Virus record (IMG/VR): IMGVR_UViG_3300027749_000096
Location: 1 to 64,000 of that record
Reading direction: 5' to 3' (one strand)
Length of the DNA stretch: 64,000 bases
Source: a virus
The notes beneath the pieces were generated by a model. The model was not told the origin of the DNA, did no database searches, and saw only the letters and a list, made by a program, of their open reading frames with translations. Made by a program: the position numbers and the translations under genes. Shown here one piece after another: positions 32,243-63,903 of this stretch; the first letter of the stretch is position 1, and each line of letters opens with the position of its first letter.

Positions 32243-32548
32243 ATGCAAAAAGAATTTAAAGCAGTAGTAGAAACAGTATCTGATGTAGTGAAAACTAAAA
32301 AGAATGACAGCAGAAGTACATATAATGTATGTACAGTTAAATTTCTTAACGGTAGTCTACAAGGTAAAACTTACTTTGCACAACGTACTTTAACAAACAA
32401 AGACGGTGTAGAGAAGAAACCTGTTACCAAAGGACAAGAAGTACTTGTGTATTTATCACTTGTAGATAACAAACCGTTCTTTGAAATCAGTTCTGGTAGC
32501 AGTGATGTAGACAGTGCTGATGACATTATGGCTGCACTTGGGTTATAG
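32243..32548 (+). CDS. First early gene, small conserved-looking protein
   Basis: This 101-residue protein starts MQKEFKAVVETVSDVV at 32243 after the A-rich leader AAACTTAACAAA; an upstream in-frame start at 32162 lies in the non-coding control region and is rejected. The sequence suggests a small beta-barrel (VKFLNGSLQGKTYFAQRTL... GQEVLVYLSLVDNKPFFEISSG). An OB-like or DNA-binding small protein is possible. It is followed directly by a strong terminator, so it forms a single-gene early transcript. Confidence 0.65.
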   Translation: MQKEFKAVVETVSDVVKTKKNDSRSTYNVCTVKFLNGSLQGKTYFAQRTLTNKDGVEKKPVTKGQEVLVYLSLVDNKPFFEISSGSSDVDSADDIMAALGL

Positions 32549-32559
32549 AACCCAAACAC

Positions 32560-32596
32560 AACACACACATATTAAACAATATGTGTGTGTTTTTTA
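32560..32596 (+). terminator. Rho-independent terminator after 32243-32548
   Basis: The stem ACACACACATATT...AATATGTGTGTGT (13 bp, 4-nt loop) is followed by six T residues and ends the first early gene. Confidence 0.85.
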
Positions 32597-32814: not shown

Positions 32815-32822
32815 ACAAATTA

Positions 32823-32885
32823 AGACCTGTATAATATACATATATAAACTCATATAGACATATTTATTTTATACAGGTCTTTGTT
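32823..32885 (+). terminator. Large hairpin with terminal T residues
   Basis: AGACCTGTATA (32823-32833) pairs perfectly with TATACAGGTCT (32870-32880), closing a 36-nt AT-rich loop and followed by TTTG. It ends the small gene at 32677 or starts the structured-RNA region. Confidence 0.55.
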
Positions 32886-33506
32886 ACTATTTTAGCCTAA
32901 AAAAGTTGTCTCCAGCCTGTGGACATACCTGACTTTACTATTGATAATCAATTAGTTGTGTGTGAGGGTGATGATGGGTGGAAACACCTCAATCTATTCT
33001 ATTAACACACAGAATGTGCTGAAAAAAACAAAAAATTTGTGGATGAGATGGCTATAACTCTTTAGAGATGAATAAACTCTTACAAACTTGTGGGGCTTCT
33101 ATGTTATTTATACATTAGTATTATCAGTACTACGTATATATTCAAACACTCTGATAAGGTGTTAATAACAAGATGGTGCAGACTTAAAAATCAAGTAGTG
33201 CTTATATATAGGGATAACAGATACCTATTTATATAGCTCTTTAAGGCAGTGATGTCACAATTCTGTAATGTTGTACAAACCACCTCAACATTTAGTCTAT
33301 AGGTTTGTGGTAAACCTAACTAACAATATCTATTTATCTATAAGGATAAATTAGATGCTTCTGATGTTTAGATGTTAGACCGTCACTTCTTATATGGTTA
33401 TAAGGAGATACATTAGCAGTTTATTATTATTTATGACACATTTAACGGGGCTGAGACCACAGCCCAAAGTCTTAACTCAAATCCTTTGTCTGTAGGATAT
33501 ATACAG
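32886..33506 (+). ncRNA. Structured non-coding region A (620 bp)
   Basis: No convincing ORF lies here on either strand, yet simple hairpins are frequent. TAGGTTT/AAACCTA closes a 5-nt loop at 33300-33318; ATTTATC/GATAAAT occurs at 33332-33351; CTTATA/TATAAG at about 33389-33404; GGGCTG/CAGCCC at about 33447-33464; GTCTCCA/TGTGGAC at about 32899-32914. Such density in AT-rich phage DNA suggests a folded RNA, transcribed rightward with the early genes. The family is unknown. Confidence 0.55.
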
Positions 33507-33731
33507 ATGACAACAATTATGAAAAGTTTTAGAATTGAATGGGATACATTAAGAAATGGTCAATTCCCAACAGAACAAATGGAATCTTGTGGATTATCTG
33601 TATCTGTAACTAAGTTATCTGTATTTAAACAAGAGATAGAGTTAACTTCTACTACAGATGAAGATATTACACCATATTTAGCATTTGAAATAGGATGTTT
33701 AGTCACTGCTAGTGTTTATTCTAATAGATAA
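33507..33731 (+). CDS. Small protein embedded in structured RNA region
   Basis: This 74-residue protein starts MTTIMKSFRIEWDTLRNGQF at 33507. An earlier in-frame ATG at 33486 lies in the structured leader, and a later one at 33519 is also possible. It is beta-rich with two Cys and a hydrophobic C-terminal part (YLAFEIGCLVTASVYSNR). The gene is framed on both sides by long structured non-coding DNA, so it may be an ORF carried inside the RNA locus. Function unknown. Confidence 0.5.
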   Translation: MTTIMKSFRIEWDTLRNGQFPTEQMESCGLSVSVTKLSVFKQEIELTSTTDEDITPYLAFEIGCLVTASVYSNR

Positions 33732-34436
33732 ACTCCGTCTGATCAACGGGGGCTTAATTATAGTGGTTAAGCAGGAAAAGAGTTATGGGTAACAACCATA
33801 AATGTTGATTATGACTCAAACAAAAGGTGAAGACCATTCCTAGAGGGTAAAACTAATCCTATAAATCAACTGTAGGTATTCCCTGGAAGACTGGCTATTA
33901 AGGAAGCATAGTTAACACTCATATTGTCTGATGTATCAGAAGTGTTCTACCTTTTTACCAGTCTTTACGGAATAAAAGCAGTTGTAACAAATACTAGTTA
34001 GTAAGCATATAAACTGTGAAGGTTTATGTTGAAATAAGGCTGGAAGAGTGTTACCACAAAACTTGTAATTCAGAGGTCAAGAACCTGCTTACATGTTACA
34101 ACTGAGTGCAGAGGGGAATAAAGTATTGTTGCTTTTTCTTTAACCAAGCAAACATCCAGTAAGTTACTGGCGTTGGGTCACCATAACAGACAAGTGACAT
34201 TTTTTAAAAAACTTAATAACTTTGCAAGTTGTTGAGCACACCAGTTTCTTTGAGACCTTCTAAACAACTTTCTAAAATTATTTATATTACCTAGGAATCT
34301 GATATAAATAAGGGTACAATCCATTAAGTAATGATATAGGTATATTGCCGAACTGTTTAGAAATAAAACTCAAAGTTTTAGGTGTAAAACACAAACTCAA
34401 AAAGGATATGTCTTCCTTATAATAGACAGGAATGTT
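33732..34436 (+). ncRNA. Structured non-coding region B (705 bp), candidate large RNA
   Basis: No gene lies in these 705 bp, but long-range pairing is strong. AAGACTGG (33887-33894) pairs with CCAGTCTT (33958-33965), enclosing AACACT/AGTGTT (33914-33919/33941-33946) and TCTGA-TGTA-TCAGA (33927-33940). CAGTTGTAAC (33979-33988) pairs with GTTACAACTG (34095-34104), followed inward by GTAAGCA/TGCTTAC (34001-34007/34086-34092). CCAGTA/TACTGG lies at 34156-34170. AAGTTGTT/AACAACTT spans 34226-34270. The length and layout recall giant ornate phage RNAs (ROOL, GOLLD type). No family is confirmed. Confidence 0.65.
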
Positions 34437-34619
34437 ATGATTAGTTCAAAAATTGATTTAGATGAAATTGAACATTTAAAAATGGAACAATACATCAAAA
34501 GAATTGCAGAAATAAGAAGTGAAATAGAATTAACATATTCTAATCCCTCATTATCTGGTACAGCTAAAGATTTAGCTACAATTGCTGATCAAGAAGAAGA
34601 AATGAAGTATCAACAATAA
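34437..34619 (+). CDS. Small acidic helical protein
   Basis: This 60-residue protein (MISSKIDLDEIEHLKMEQYI...) is acidic and helical (KRIAEIRSEIELTYSNPSLSGT), ending in EEEMKYQQ. It lies between two structured non-coding blocks. It has no motif; a small regulatory or inhibitor protein is possible. The ATG is preceded by AGACAGGA, an unusual purine-rich context for this genome. Confidence 0.5.
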   Translation: MISSKIDLDEIEHLKMEQYIKRIAEIRSEIELTYSNPSLSGTAKDLATIADQEEEMKYQQ

Positions 34620-34665: not shown

Positions 34666-34751
34666 TAAACTAATTCCTTTTGCATATTCTTCTTGATTAA
34701 TAAAGTCCTGTATTTAAATGGGATGCTGGAATACCAGATAATTAAAAGAAG

Positions 34752-34846
34752 ACAGTTGTAATAGATGGCTTATAGCAAAGTAACCTAACCATTTCCTTTA
34801 GGAAAATAAAAGTAGAGTAGGTCTAGACTTCCAATATTACAACTGT
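34752..34846 (+). ncRNA. Structured non-coding element with 12-bp closing stem
   Basis: ACAGTTGTAATA (34752-34763) pairs perfectly with TATTACAACTGT (34835-34846), enclosing about 70 nt that includes the TTTCCTTTAGGAAA hairpin. The closing stem shares CAGTTGTAA with the stem at 33979-34104, suggesting related RNA domains. The remaining DNA between 34666 and 34892 holds no gene. Confidence 0.6.
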
Positions 34847-34892
34847 TTATGCAAAGGGTATAATATTTAATCAATTTTTAAAACAAAAAACA

Positions 34893-35228
34893 ATGAAAAT
34901 AATTTATGATAAGGATCTTTCTGGTAATCTAGCAGTATATATCCACTGTAAAACTGCTGGGGATTATTATGACATCAATAACAAAATGTATGTACACTCT
35001 GAATATGATACAGAATGGGATCAATTAATGGCTAGATTAGTAGAATTAAAATACTTTAACCATTATGACAAACAAGAATTAAAAAGTGCTGGTAATGTTA
35101 TTATACTTCTTGAATTTATAAGCTGTTCTCAAAAAGATATGCTTATAAAAGAACTTAATGTTTATTTAGAAGGAATAAAAGACGGACATTGTATATATGA
35201 AGTTAAATTTAGAAATCTTGACAATTAA
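34893..35228 (+). CDS. Early protein, unknown
   Basis: This 111-residue protein (MKIIYDKDLSGNLAVYIHC...) has an alternating strand-helix pattern with one HYDKQELKSAGNVIILLEFISCSQKDML segment. No catalytic motif is evident. It is the first gene of a continuous run of small early genes after the structured RNA region. Confidence 0.6.
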   Translation: MKIIYDKDLSGNLAVYIHCKTAGDYYDINNKMYVHSEYDTEWDQLMARLVELKYFNHYDKQELKSAGNVIILLEFISCSQKDMLIKELNVYLEGIKDGHCIYEVKFRNLDN

Positions 35229-36353: not shown

Positions 36354-36569
36354 ATGAATCATTCAAAGAAGTTGTATAATGGCTTAGAAGCTGTTAAAAC
36401 AAGACGTAGAGCTGTTATTGAAAGACTGGACAGACAAATAGCTGCTGGCACTAAAATAGTGTCTAAAAAAGCCTCTAATGGAGTCAGACTGATTGCTGAA
36501 GAAGAATTAACAGAATCTGATGTTAAACGTATTAAAAAAGAACTATCTGTTCTTAAGGAAAGAATCTAA
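36354..36569 (+). CDS. Small basic helical protein
   Basis: This 71-residue Lys/Arg-rich helical protein (MNHSKKLYNGLEAVKTRRRAVIERLDRQIA...) is followed directly by the long hairpin at 36571-36659. It could bind nucleic acid. No family recognised. Confidence 0.6.
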   Translation: MNHSKKLYNGLEAVKTRRRAVIERLDRQIAAGTKIVSKKASNGVRLIAEEELTESDVKRIKKELSVLKERI

Positions 36570-36570
36570 G

Positions 36571-36659
36571 GGATACCAGGCAAAAATGAGCTCTAAGTAA
36601 TACCATTATATTATATATATATTTATGGTAATACTAGGGGCTCAAATTTGCCTGGTACC
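36571..36659 (+). ncRNA. Near-perfect long hairpin RNA (about 89 nt)
   Basis: TACCAGGCAAA (36574-36584) pairs with TTTGCCTGGTA (36647-36657). Inward, TGAGC (36587-36591) pairs with GCTCA (36640-36644), and AGTAATACCAT pairs with ATGGTAATACT with one mismatch, leaving an AT-rich loop. In total about 27 base pairs run with small interruptions. No T-run follows, so it is not a simple terminator; it may be a processing site or a small regulatory RNA. Confidence 0.75.
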
Positions 36660-36706
36660 AAAACAGTAAAAAATCACATTAACAAACACAAATTAAATTT
36701 ATTATT

Positions 36707-43792: not shown

Positions 43793-44539
43793 ATGACACT
43801 ATCTACATATACTACTGAAAATATTGAATCTTTAAAAAAAACAGGTGTTTATAAAATATACCACAATTTTTTTCCAGATAAAATATATATAGGTAGTGCT
43901 GCATCTACAAATTTTAGAAATGATAATAAAGGATTTTTAGGAAGATGGAAATCACATCTTTCACAATTAAAACTAAATAAGCATCATTCAAAGTATTTAC
44001 AAAGAGTTGTAAATAAATATGGTATTGATAATCTTAAATTTGAAATTTTAGAAATATGTGACTTTTTAGAATGTTTAACTAAAGAACAATTTTATATTGA
44101 TTTATATAATCCTGTATATAACAGTTGCAAAATTGCAAAAAGCTGTTTAGGAATAAAACGTCATAATTTATATAAAAATGTACATCAATATAATATGTTT
44201 GGAGTTTATATTAAATCTTATGATAATATTACAAATGCAGAAATTGAAACAAAAATAGATAGAGCATCTATATCAAAAGCTGCAAAAGGTACTAGACCTA
44301 GTGCTGGAGGTTTTATGTGGAGTTTTGATATTACAAAACCTCCTATACCGTTAAGAGTAATTGAACAATATAATTTAAATAATGAACTTATTAATAGATA
44401 TACATCTTTAGAAGAAGTAAAAAAGACATTAAACATTAAAAGTAGTACTGCTATAAGAAATTGTTTTATTGGTAAACAAAAACAAGCATATGGTTTTAAA
44501 TGGATTGATGTTATAAACAATTGGACATTTAGTTCATGA
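43793..44539 (+). CDS. GIY-YIG homing endonuclease
   Basis: In this 248-residue protein the N-terminal catalytic domain shows KKTGVYKIYHNFFPDKIYIGSAAS (GVY...YIG, about residues 16-37), GFLGRWKSHLSQL with the catalytic Arg, and ILEICDFLECLTKEQFYIDLYNP. Two NUMOD-type DNA-binding repeats follow (VHQYNMFGVYIKSYDNITNAE and VIEQYNLNNELINRYTSLEEVKKTL). It is free-standing, 36 bp after the HNH protein. Both look like mobile passengers. Confidence 0.9.
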   Translation: MTLSTYTTENIESLKKTGVYKIYHNFFPDKIYIGSAASTNFRNDNKGFLGRWKSHLSQLKLNKHHSKYLQRVVNKYGIDNLKFEILEICDFLECLTKEQFYIDLYNPVYNSCKIAKSCLGIKRHNLYKNVHQYNMFGVYIKSYDNITNAEIETKIDRASISKAAKGTRPSAGGFMWSFDITKPPIPLRVIEQYNLNNELINRYTSLEEVKKTLNIKSSTAIRNCFIGKQKQAYGFKWIDVINNWTFSS

Positions 44540-52298: not shown

Positions 52299-53756
52299 AT
52301 GATGAGTACTAATAATACAAAATATGTTAGACCATCTAACTTAGTATATAAATTTAATGTAGGAGATAAAGTGAAAGTGATCTATCCTGGTTCAGGATGT
52401 GGAGATTATGATATAGGAAAAGAAGTTAGAATAGTAAGAAAAGGTAAATATGCAGATGATCCTGCTTATGAAGTGTCTCCAGCTATAGGAAATAGTAAAA
52501 CAGGAAGTTTTGATAAAATGATAGGAGAGAAGGCTTTTGTACTAGTAGAATCAGTACAAGATTTACTTGATAGAACAAAAAATTTAAATTTAAACACACA
52601 CACAAAGTCAATTAAAATGGCAAAAATTAGAACAAAATCAATTACAAAGAAAGTTACTCAAGAAGTAAGAACAATTGAAACATCCTTAATTAATAAGGAA
52701 GAAGTATTTAAAATGTTAGCATTAGCAGAAGCTACAGGGCTTCCATGTTTATTAATTGGTGAACCAGGTACAGGTAAAACCAAAACTGTTATAGATTATG
52801 CTAAAGCATGGTTGAATAAAGATGGTAATATGACAGCAGAAGACTTTATGAGTAAAATCTATATTCTAGAAACTGATGAAGGTACTAAATCAAGTGAGGT
52901 GAAGGGTATTCCTGATCTTCAAGAGTTGTTTACAAATAACAACTATAAACTTAACACCCCAATTGCTGAAGCAGAAATTGTAATCATCAATGAGGTGGAT
53001 AAAGCTAGTAGTGGTATCAGAAATGCTATGTTGGGTGTGATGAATGAGAAGTTCTTATTTAATGGTAAACATAAAATACCTTGTAAATGGAAGTTATTTA
53101 TTGCTACATGTAATGAAATACCTAAAGATGAACAAGATAGTCCATTCTGGGATAGATTTATGTTAAAGACTAATGTAAATAGAGTATCTGCAGGTGATAT
53201 TAGTAAGTATTATTCTAAAGGAGATAGAAACTACAGAGAAAGTTTTAAAATGGGTATTCCAAATAAAGCTGAACTAGACACTGTAGATGTACCAGTTAAG
53301 AAATTAGATAAATATCTAGAAGTGGGTTATCAACACAGTAGTGATAGAACTTTGACTTTTGTACCTAAATTAGCAAAAGCTGTTAGTTATATCTGGGATA
53401 TTAGTATTGATAAAGCTCTTGTAAAAACTGCTCAAATTATGATTGGTCAATCTGCAGGTAGTGAATTACAAAATAAACTAATGTCTGCTGAGGTTAAAGC
53501 TGTTATGAGTAAGGTGGAAATGCTTCAATCATTTACAACTAATGAACAACTAGAACAAGCTGTAGTTGAAATTGAGAGCTTAATTAATGTTTATGCTACT
53601 AGAGATTCTATTGATGAAGATCAAGTACAAGAAATAGAAAGGTCTATGCATTATATTTTAAGTAATCATTCTGCACGTAAAGATGATTATCAAACAGCTG
53701 AAGCATTTGATAGTATGCTAGAAGGAGAAGAAGAAACTACTAAAATCCCTTTTTAG
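52299..53756 (+). CDS. MoxR-type AAA+ ATPase with N-terminal KOW-like domain
   Basis: This 485-residue protein begins with a domain of about 95 residues that has a KVGDKVKVIYPGSGCGDYDIGKEV SH3/KOW-like pattern. The ATPase follows: Walker A IGEPGTGKTKT (about 147-157), Walker B EIVIINEVDKAS (about 226-237), sensor 1 FIATCNE (about 266-272) and a sensor-2/lid region. The linker is AT-rich and contains MAKIR at codon 107 (52617) preceded by TCAATTAAA, a typical gene start, so a second product may begin there. MoxR ATPases act with VWA proteins like the one downstream. Confidence 0.88.
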   Translation: MMSTNNTKYVRPSNLVYKFNVGDKVKVIYPGSGCGDYDIGKEVRIVRKGKYADDPAYEVSPAIGNSKTGSFDKMIGEKAFVLVESVQDLLDRTKNLNLNTHTKSIKMAKIRTKSITKKVTQEVRTIETSLINKEEVFKMLALAEATGLPCLLIGEPGTGKTKTVIDYAKAWLNKDGNMTAEDFMSKIYILETDEGTKSSEVKGIPDLQELFTNNNYKLNTPIAEAEIVIINEVDKASSGIRNAMLGVMNEKFLFNGKHKIPCKWKLFIATCNEIPKDEQDSPFWDRFMLKTNVNRVSAGDISKYYSKGDRNYRESFKMGIPNKAELDTVDVPVKKLDKYLEVGYQHSSDRTLTFVPKLAKAVSYIWDISIDKALVKTAQIMIGQSAGSELQNKLMSAEVKAVMSKVEMLQSFTTNEQLEQAVVEIESLINVYATRDSIDEDQVQEIERSMHYILSNHSARKDDYQTAEAFDSMLEGEEETTKIPF

Positions 53757-58790: not shown

Positions 58791-58979
58791 ATGACTAGAA
58801 AAGAAAAGATGATTCACAGTTTAATAATATCATGTTTGTTTAGTTTATTAAGTTGGTTTACAATAGATAGATTTATAATAAAAGTATCATTTTGGCAATA
58901 CTTTTTTATTGAATTTATTTTGATTTTATCACTTAAATTATTTAACTTTACAAAGCAAAGATTAAACCTAAATTTATAA
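58791..58979 (+). CDS. Small two-span membrane protein
   Basis: This 62-residue hydrophobic protein (MTRKEKMIHSLIISCLFSLLSW...) has two membrane segments (SLIISCLFSLLSWFTI and FWQYFFIEFILILSLKLFNF). Its stop overlaps the helicase start as TAATG. Its presence inside the replication operon is unusual; a membrane tether for replication is a possible but untested reading. Confidence 0.55.
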   Translation: MTRKEKMIHSLIISCLFSLLSWFTIDRFIIKVSFWQYFFIEFILILSLKLFNFTKQRLNLNL

Positions 58980-60907
58980 TGAATTTACTAAATACACCTA
59001 TTAAAGATAGACCTTTTGGTATAAGGAGTTATGTAGAAATTCTTGAAGAAGGTTTAAATTACATTGAGGATAGAAGACTAGGTAAGATTAAATCTTTAAC
59101 ATTACCGTGGGATGGATTAAATAATGCAGGTGTAGCTGGTTTAGAATGGGGATCAATGATAACTATAGGTGCTAGACCTGGTTGTTTATCTGGAGATACT
59201 GTTCTTGATATTTATAGACACTACAATAAAAAAAATCATAGAAATGGATCTAGAAAATACACATTAAAAGAATTATACTATAAATTTAACGGCTTACTTG
59301 TACCAAGAAATTCCAAAAATGATAAAAGAAATGGTAATTATTGGGATTTAACAGTGCCTTCAAAACTTTATAGTTATAATAAGAATGAACAGTATTTAGA
59401 TTTAAATAATATTGTTAATGTTATAGAATCAGGTATAAAAGAAACTTTTACTGTTATAACAGAATCAGGAAAACAATTAAGAGCAACAAAAGATCATAGA
59501 TTTTTAATATCTGAAAATGATGAATATCTTGAATTAGAAAATTTAAACATTGGGGATTATGTATATTGTAGAACTGACAAACATATAAATAAAGGAAGAA
59601 AACCAAGACCTTATAGATTTGAATATACTACAAAAATGCCATATTATCCATCAGCTAAAGAAAAAAAAGTTAAATGTAATAATATTGAATATACACATCA
59701 TAGAATTAAAAAGACTAGAGCTGTTTATGATGCTGCTTTAAACAATGTTACATTAGATGTATTTTTAGAAAATGTAAAAACTAATCCTAATCATAATTAT
59801 AAGTTTTCAGATCTTAATATGGACATTCATCATATAGATGAAAACCATCAAAATGATGTTCCTGAAAACTTAATTTTGCTTAGTAAAGAAGAACATGCTA
59901 GATTACATTCATCGGTTACTTATATAGATAGAATTAACAGAAAGAAAATTGTTAAAGAAAAAATCATATCAATTGTAAGTTTTGGAAAAGAAATGACTTA
60001 TGATATAGAAATGACCAGTCCTTATAATAATTTTGTTGCTAATGAATTTGTTGTTCATAATTCAGGTAAGACAATGTTTGTATCTCAAATACTAAGAGAA
60101 TCTAAAATGCTTAATCCAACACAAAATTTTAATATTTTAGAATTTCAATTTGAGATGGGAGCTAGACAAACTGCAGCTAGAGATTTTGCTTCCCAGGTTA
60201 GTTTAGATTATAATCAAGTACTTAGTACTCATAAACAATTAGATGAGTTTTCTGTAAAACTTATGAGACAATATATTGCAGACACTAAAGTGTTTCAAGG
60301 TTTTGGTAACTATAGAGTTCAGATTAATGACCCTCTTACAGTTACTAATATGGAACAAGCCATATATAAAACTTATGAAGGACTTGGTGGTAAGCCTCTT
60401 ATTGTATCTATAGATCATAGCTTCTTAGTAAAAAAAGATAGAGATGAGAAAGAAAAACTTAACACTTTATATAACACTGTAGAAATGTTAATGAAGGTGA
60501 AGAATAAACTACCAATAGTGGTATTTATGATTTCACAATTAAACAGAAGTATTGATGACCCATTAAGAAAAATGCCTGGTACAGTGGGTAACTACCCTAC
60601 TAGTGCAGATATATTTGGTGGTGATGCTTTACAACAGGGTTCTGATATGGTGTTAGTTCTTACAAGACCTTTTAAAGCTGATATAGAAATATATGGTAGA
60701 AAAGAGTATGTTTGCAAAACTGATGATATTTTTGGTCACATTCTTAAAGCTAGAAATAGTGCTGATGATACTAACTTATTGTTTCTTAAAGCAGAGTTTT
60801 CTAAACAAAGAATGATAGAAATTCCTGAACCTGTTTCTAATAACCCAACAGGAGCTCCACCAAAAAGAAGAACAGCTCAAAAATATAATAATTCACAAAC
60901 CCCATAA
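58979..60907 (+). CDS. dnaB: DnaB-type replicative helicase interrupted by an intein
   Basis: The precursor has 642 residues. Exteins are residues 1-68 and 362-642. N-extein ends TIGARPG and C-extein begins SGKTMFVSQIL, so splicing rebuilds the P-loop GARPGSGKT. C-extein carries LEFQFEMGARQTAARDFASQVS, Walker B VSIDHSF, QLNRS and GGDALQQGSD motifs of the DnaB/RecA-like helicase core. The mature length is about 349 residues, as expected for a single-domain phage DnaB-like helicase. It unwinds DNA at the fork with the primase encoded downstream. Confidence 0.92.
   Translation: MNLLNTPIKDRPFGIRSYVEILEEGLNYIEDRRLGKIKSLTLPWDGLNNAGVAGLEWGSMITIGARPGCLSGDTVLDIYRHYNKKNHRNGSRKYTLKELYYKFNGLLVPRNSKNDKRNGNYWDLTVPSKLYSYNKNEQYLDLNNIVNVIESGIKETFTVITESGKQLRATKDHRFLISENDEYLELENLNIGDYVYCRTDKHINKGRKPRPYRFEYTTKMPYYPSAKEKKVKCNNIEYTHHRIKKTRAVYDAALNNVTLDVFLENVKTNPNHNYKFSDLNMDIHHIDENHQNDVPENLILLSKEEHARLHSSVTYIDRINRKKIVKEKIISIVSFGKEMTYDIEMTSPYNNFVANEFVVHNSGKTMFVSQILRESKMLNPTQNFNILEFQFEMGARQTAARDFASQVSLDYNQVLSTHKQLDEFSVKLMRQYIADTKVFQGFGNYRVQINDPLTVTNMEQAIYKTYEGLGGKPLIVSIDHSFLVKKDRDEKEKLNTLYNTVEMLMKVKNKLPIVVFMISQLNRSIDDPLRKMPGTVGNYPTSADIFGGDALQQGSDMVLVLTRPFKADIEIYGRKEYVCKTDDIFGHILKARNSADDTNLLFLKAEFSKQRMIEIPEPVSNNPTGAPPKRRTAQKYNNSQTP
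59183..60061 (+). mobile_element. Intein with HNH homing endonuclease in dnaB P-loop
   Basis: In-frame insertion of 293 residues (69-361). It begins with C69 (CLSGDTVLDI, block A). Block B is ESGKQLRATKDHRFLI with the conserved T..H-like ATKDH. The HNH homing domain centres on DIHHIDENHQNDVPENLILLSKEEHARLH. Block F is MTYDIEMTSPYNNFVANEFVVHN, ending in His-Asn before the +1 Ser of the C-extein. All residues needed for class 1 splicing are present. Confidence 0.93.
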
Positions 60908-62937: not shown

Positions 62938-63903
62938 ATGTTTAACACCAAGAATTTAGTACATGATGTAAAGAATGTTCCTGTCCCTTGGATATTTGAA
63001 CACTTTGCATCCCTTAAAGAAAAATTAGTTGGGCAGGATGTAAAGATTAAAAGTGTTTTTAATAAAGCTGATAAAGTTCCTAGTATGTGTATATACACGG
63101 ATAGAGCTAACAGCTATAGATATAAAGATTTTTCATCTGGTAAAAGTGGTAGTGCAATAGATTTTGTAAAAGAACTAAAGCATCTATCTTTTTATGAAGC
63201 TGCTCAGTTAATAGTACAAGTATATAATGATTATGTTCTACATAATAATGGAGGATATGATTTAAAGGAATTTCAAAAGGCTTCTAGATATAAAGTGACT
63301 AGTTATGCTTTTAGAACATGGACTACACAGGATCAATATTTCTGGACTCAGTTTAATATTGGATCTAAACTACTAGAAGAATATTGTGTAAGACCTTTAG
63401 ATTATTATTGTATGACTAAAGATGATAAAAATCTTTGTATAACAGGACTTTATCTCTATGGTTATTTTAAGAAAGACGGCACACTATATAAAATATATCA
63501 GCCTAAAACTTTAGATAAGAAATTTATTAAAGTGACAGACTATATTCAAGGATTTGAACAGATACATCATCATAAAAATTTACTTATTACATCCAGTCTT
63601 AAAGATGTAATGTCTATAAAGTCTCTCAAACTTAAAATAGATGTTATAGCTCCAGACAGTGAGAACACTATGATTAAAGATGACATCATGGATGACTTTA
63701 TTGAAAGCTATGATAAAATAATTATTATGTTTGACAATGATGAACCAGGTATAAAAGCTATGAAAACTTATAAGGAAAAGCATCCTTTTGTAGAAATAGC
63801 TCTTCTTCCTATGAGTAAAGATGTATCAGATAGTATTAAAGATTTTGGAGCTAAAGAAGTTAGAAACAGAATAGTTCCTATATTAGACAAAAAAATAAAC
63901 TAA
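62938..63903 (+). CDS. DnaG-type TOPRIM primase
   Basis: In this 321-residue protein the C-terminal TOPRIM domain shows LLITSSLKDVMS (around 217-228, replacing the Glu motif with Ser/Lys), APDSENT and IIIMFDNDEPGIKAM (about 261-275) with the DxDxxG motif. The N-terminal part (YRYKDFSSGKSGSAIDFVKELKHLSFYEAAQLI) resembles the zinc-binding/CHC2-like helices of primase but without visible Cys ligands. It probably synthesises primers for the DnaB-type helicase upstream. Its stop overlaps the next start (TAATG). Confidence 0.85.
   Translation: MFNTKNLVHDVKNVPVPWIFEHFASLKEKLVGQDVKIKSVFNKADKVPSMCIYTDRANSYRYKDFSSGKSGSAIDFVKELKHLSFYEAAQLIVQVYNDYVLHNNGGYDLKEFQKASRYKVTSYAFRTWTTQDQYFWTQFNIGSKLLEEYCVRPLDYYCMTKDDKNLCITGLYLYGYFKKDGTLYKIYQPKTLDKKFIKVTDYIQGFEQIHHHKNLLITSSLKDVMSIKSLKLKIDVIAPDSENTMIKDDIMDDFIESYDKIIIMFDNDEPGIKAMKTYKEKHPFVEIALLPMSKDVSDSIKDFGAKEVRNRIVPILDKKIN

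Follow-up and report, generated by a model that had tools for sequence, protein, structure and literature searches.

What kind of molecule is encoded by 1.5 kb of phage DNA that is dense in hairpins and almost devoid of genes? The question is raised by positions 32,886–34,436 of a 64,000-nucleotide (nt) window, the whole stretch of DNA analyzed here, which covers positions 1 to 64,000 of the 72,005-bp virus record IMGVR_UViG_3300027749_000096. An initial annotation of the window had likened this block to the ornate large phage RNAs ROOL and GOLLD and had considered a new large RNA class possible. Our analysis indicates that functional structured RNA is indeed present, but as a mosaic of short modules: a Hatchet self-cleaving ribozyme, a conserved segment (module D), and modules A, B, C and E. 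By sequence comparison, the last four are at least four strongly covarying candidate RNA families, absent from Rfam 15, that recur at one genomic place in Crassvirales, which are among the most abundant human gut viruses. Coordinates are collected in Table 1; L numbers denote the sequences compared.

A full-length Hatchet ribozyme

Hatchet was the sole family matched when the whole window was searched against Rfam at curated cut-offs. The match covers positions 1–133 of the 133-position model and retains the conserved nucleotides of the P1–P2 linker and the P2/P3 bulge (ACAA, UGUGGGGC, GUGCAGAC and UUAAAAAUCA). Hatchet cuts at the base of P1 (PMC4604424), and by this rule cleavage would be expected at about 33,060/33,061. 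All 210 examples in the 2015 biochemical study came from metagenomic DNA; no organism whose genome had been fully sequenced contributed any (PMC4604424). Here the ribozyme is placed in crAss-like phages: of 21 related genomes, 7 contain it, and five of these 7 are the named gut genomes cr6_1, cr109_1, cr10_1, cr60_1 and cr115_1.

Other gut Crassvirales have a Hatchet, RAGATH-7, RAGATH-9 or hammerhead RNA in this early zone. RAGATH-7 and RAGATH-9 were located within the early region in named Crassvirales genomes (L064 4276–4489; L059, L060, L064), and together with RAGATH-1-hammerhead they mark this region in related gut phages (L059–L064). Searches of the open-access literature yielded no report of Hatchet or other structured RNAs in crAss-like phages. 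Hatchet, RAGATH-7 and RAGATH-9, RNAs without a known role, gain a biological home, in identified phages where Hatchet and RAGATH RNAs can be tested in their native context. Other RNAs noted in crAss-like phages were a permuted tmRNA gene in a contig (L025 6604–6846), ordinary tmRNA genes in L005 and L051, and a group I intron adjoining an endonuclease gene in cr128_1 (L002 8221–8490).

Covariation supports four candidate RNA families

A blast search of the block against phage records returned 49 bp of cr128_1 as its sole match, and a pattern taken from that match seeded the search for motif B. The pattern retrieved 50 viral contigs, and a consensus search added about a dozen named gut Crassvirales; motif B is known in about 60 loci. 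Of 21 related genomes, 19 carry a single copy. When early noncoding DNA was compared across ten phages, motif B was the only segment that nearly all of them shared, with a diverged copy in cr272_1. The consensus reads AAAAAACUYAAUAAC UUUNCAAG RUGU UGAG N ACACC AGUUU CUU [variable hairpin] AAG UUUU A GGUGU AAAACACAA. In the window, P1 joins 34,212–34,216 to 34,232–34,236, a loop pair links G34,224 to C34,237, P2 joins 34,238–34,242 to 34,381–34,385, P3 spans 34,248 to 34,375, and the tail forms a UG/CA pseudoknot.

In the 40-sequence alignment of motif B, 95.5% of cells are paired, and covariation reaches 0.277, compared with 0.123 in shuffled controls and values below 0.1 for slid structures. 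The loop base N and the N following UGAG covary as C-G, G-C and U-A, the tail pseudoknot changes from UG/CA to CA/UG in nine sequences, and five P3 pairs are altered on both sides; P1 and P2 are nearly invariant and little informative on pairing. A hairpin singled out earlier at 34,226–34,270 proved to contain a real AAGUUGUU/AACAACUU pairing inside motif B, but that pairing is phage-specific and is not the conserved P1. Short-loop variants of motif B (AAAAAACCUCAUUUGAGGACACUAG) stand next to a normal copy in L024 (about 12,080) and L034 (about 147), and cr115_1 (W08) has a second, weaker copy at 63,822–63,892, far from its early region.

Motif A was found through k-mers adjoining motif B, and scans gave at least about 120 contigs for each half. 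It is a predicted three-way-junction RNA with a pseudoknot, and 141 copies were parsed. Across these copies P2 occurs as CUCAC/GUGAG, CCUGA/UCAGG, UCUAC/GUAGA, CUAUC/GAUAG and others, with up to four pair types, and P1 as UGCAC/GUGCA, UGUAC/GUACA, UGCAU/AUGCA and UGCGU/ACGCA. The pseudoknot pairs CCC of the P2 loop with GGG of the tail, jointly swapped to CAC/GUG. Overall, 98.1% of cells are paired, 11 of 24 pairs are altered on both sides, and covariation is 0.309, against 0.117 shuffled and at most 0.084 slid; the first nine pairs of P3 are nearly invariant and uninformative on pairing. Genomes have one to three copies of motif A, close to motif B within the early region. A riboswitch-like terminator overlapping the motif A GGGG was rejected as a general feature, being clear in few copies (L137, L197, L216).

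The first motif A copy in the window has P1 CUGUA/UGCAG, P3 CAGUUGUAACA/UGUUACAACUG with a long insert, and the core GAGUGCAGAGGGGAAU; it retains P3 and the 3′ core, while module E occupies the place of P2. Three hairpins of the initial annotation were real and fall on these modules: nested stems at 33,887–33,965 are the body of module E, the stacked stems at 33,979–34,104 are the P3 stem of this motif A copy, and 34,156–34,170 is the CCAGUAAGUUACUGG hairpin of module C. Module C was recovered from 41 contigs, with covariation of 0.441 against 0.208. Module E comes from 16 contigs and has four pairs altered on both sides; its covariation, 0.178 against 0.095, comes from 12 sequences, which makes this test weaker than those for A, B and C. 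Comparison shows that A, B, C and E each have a fold of their own, pseudoknotted in A and B, and they supply the covarying pairs that had been proposed as a check on RNA function.

When canonical copies of A and B (L046), C and A (L234) and E (L259) were searched against Rfam with E up to 10, no RAGATH model was hit, and any hits to other families were chance-like, scoring well short of the cut-offs. In this the four differ from the RAGATH RNAs of the same early region.

Modules are arranged as a mosaic

The order of the modules varies, and no spacers separate them: C-B (L004), C-A (many sequences), A and B directly joined (L046), and A-C-B in the window; gut genomes also carry motif B without A. 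L265 is 85–90% identical to the window over 32,885–33,521 and 33,732–33,993 and then continues without A, C and B. In L187 (4978) and L194 (1248), motif A is followed directly by tRNA-like sequence on the strand of the match, so RNA modules can apparently sit inside tRNA arrays. These arrangements indicate that Hatchet, D, E, A, C and B are independent modules, shuffled as units among Crassvirales.

The same evidence decides against one large RNA class. GOLLD and ROOL share with the block the character of long structured noncoding phage DNA, but each is one RNA of several hundred nt with a fixed architecture, whereas the block strings together separate units, each about 80–250 nt long. Neither ROOL nor GOLLD, nor HEARO or OLE, matched the window at the gathering cut-off or at E up to 10. 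A single ornate RNA would fit how large and how densely structured the block is; with no Rfam match, modules that recur independently and in other orders in other crAss-like phages, and protein genes interrupting the zone, we give that idea almost no chance and reject it.

Coding capacity and folding of the block

The two gaps had been described as lacking genes on either strand, and this holds: the longest ATG-initiated open reading frame (ORF) on both strands encodes 33 amino acids in 32,886–33,506 and 48 in 33,732–34,436. Homologues show no conserved protein frame in the gaps; clear conservation of such frames had been named as a sign against RNA. The tiny ORF between them (33,507–33,731) is a real small gene, whose protein is 63% identical to its L026 homologue, with another relative in L198. 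Folding energies of block segments range from z −0.4 (Hatchet) to −3.6 (motif B) and are modestly unusual, and sliding 120-nt windows score mostly above −3; because even Hatchet scores −0.4, folding energy is weak evidence. The block exceeds chance only modestly by folding energy, but clearly by covariation. Segments 33,197–33,506 and 33,732–33,869 are kept in L265, with relatives too few for a covariation test. The structured zone extends past 34,436 to a weak second motif A copy, about 30 nt upstream of the ORF at 34,893.

A proposed leader function and its rivals

We propose, with about an even chance of being right, that the block is a modular RNA leader of an early transcription unit, cut by Hatchet and bearing cis-acting processing or protecting domains. 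It would be transcribed rightward early in infection; Hatchet would cleave the transcript at the site predicted above and leave a downstream RNA with a 5′-OH; and A, C, E and B may then act in cis to process or protect the RNAs carrying small early genes. A cis role is suggested because A and B typically end 10–58 nt short of a start codon, and the genes that follow are mostly unrelated: the 3′ end of motif B lies 10–50 nt upstream of an ATG in 30 of 51 loci, and the distance from motif A to the start codon of the small genes downstream has its mode at 30–58 nt. Any catalytic or binding activity of the four is putative, and so is their biochemical function.

Several points weigh against this proposal. 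Transcription and cleavage of the block are themselves predictions. The tight start-codon spacing could merely reflect compact genomes, and phage tRNA genes can be equally close to start codons, as in crAss001. Motif B is absent from crAss001 and phi14:2, both of which were searched, and is hence dispensable for the order as a whole. Finally, model R2 of motif A gave just 13 bits for copy 1 of the window, because its P2 is replaced; neither copy reaches significance, and both are therefore regarded as divergent.

Two rivals to a leader stand out: the new motifs could be ribozymes, or the modules could act in trans. On the first view, A, B, C or E might be new self-cleaving classes through which the entire block would fragment itself: they sit where related phages have Hatchet, hammerhead and RAGATH RNAs, they abut without a spacer, and their compact pseudoknotted folds with conserved unpaired cores are the usual look of small ribozymes. 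Their sequences point to no cleavage site, however, and to our knowledge most RAGATH motifs have no known activity, leaving this idea doubtful, if the most serious of the alternatives. Its boldest form, in which all four are new catalytic classes and the Crassvirales early leader is an array of diverse self-cleaving ribozymes, to which orphan RAGATH and Hatchet RNAs would naturally belong and which would cut the first transcript of the virion polymerase into defined units, seems to us slightly more doubtful. The modules could also be trans-acting small RNAs excised from a common precursor like a tRNA array, and the annotated genome of crAss001 does begin with an array of tRNAs and small ORFs. 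The tRNA-like sequence directly after motif A, the exchangeable module order and the single copy of motif B in most genomes fit this idea, but the frequently fixed start-codon spacing does not. Nor was a conserved partner found: the TROVE protein (PF05731, Ro-like) is confined to crAss001 among 29 genomes, with no match in that of the window or in 27 more, on which ground a Ro/Y-RNA-like identity was rejected. We judge trans action unlikely.

Motif B (or A) might also serve in cis as an antitermination RNA that heads the early operon and works on RNA polymerase in the manner of HK022 put. The single copy in each genome close to where the early operon begins, differing downstream genes and terminator-like hairpins in the region agree with this, yet two of these hairpins precede the block, and antitermination predicts no fixed start-codon spacing. 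Put RNAs are simple hairpins, whereas motif B has a larger, pseudoknotted fold, and the likeness is by analogy alone; we consider this explanation improbable. That the elements act as DNA, either to start replication or as hairpin promoters at which the virion RNA polymerase would begin, could be argued from the turn in GC skew at about 32 kb, the divergent strand switch at the site and the transcription of early genes by the virion polymerase (PMC10136315). But the skew tracks gene direction, covarying pairs include G-U, the long nested and pseudoknotted helices keep to one fixed strand, and a Hatchet ribozyme makes sense only as RNA, so we regard action as DNA as highly improbable.

Genomic setting and other features

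Table 1. Features in and around the RNA block, in window coordinates
Feature	Position	Strand	Details
Likely terminator of first early gene (32243–32548)	32558–32592	+	perfect 14-bp hairpin then T run; fold z −6.5
Terminator-like second hairpin, just 5′ of block	32822–32884	+	near-perfect; fold z −6.9
Module D, 50-nt conserved segment	32905–32959	+	GUCUCCA...AAUCAAnUAGUU; recurs in about 12 loci
Hatchet self-cleaving ribozyme	33058–33196	+	Rfam RF02678, 76.6 bits vs cut-off 51
Small protein gene within block	33507–33731	+	homologues in L026, L198
Motif A copy 1, divergent	33870–34118	+	matches consensus 3′ half
Module E, candidate new RNA family	33877–33974	+	long hairpin, conserved bulges, CAUAUUGU
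Module C, candidate new RNA family	34122–34200	+	AGUAUYG-stem-CUUUAACC-stem-AUCCAGUAAGYURCUGGC
Motif B, predicted pseudoknotted RNA	34206–34394	+	comparative alignment
Small ORF	34437–34619	+	start 42 nt after motif B
Motif A copy 2, weak	34722–34864	+	CAGUUGUAAUA/UAUUACAACUG stem; AUACC/GGGUAU possible pseudoknot

The window is from a crAss-like phage (Crassvirales). Genes run leftward up to 31,990 and rightward from 32,243, and the leftward arm codes for crAss-like terminase, portal and major head proteins (phrog_6681, phrog_6547, phrog_11589); the closest relatives of the terminase are in crAss-like phages, at about 25% identity. The RNA block marks the onset of the rightward, early-type region. 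The crAss-like terminase family was present in 25 of 26 records searched, the window and two gut genomes with names among them, these genomes having been picked mostly for bearing motif A; counted over genomes that bear motif A or are related, with the window as one of them, it was in 24 of 25. The Bacteroidetes promoter consensus (−33/−7) had no full match around the block.

Farther along the rightward arm, an extremely stable hairpin at 36,540–36,660 (z about −10 on both strands) is probably a terminator between early genes. Other genes on the + strand encode a NUMOD1/GIY-YIG homing endonuclease-like protein (43,793–44,539), a MoxR-type AAA ATPase (52,299–53,756) that adjoins a 502-amino-acid protein without a confident family match, and a DnaB-like helicase split by an intein carrying an HNH endonuclease domain (58,979–60,907).
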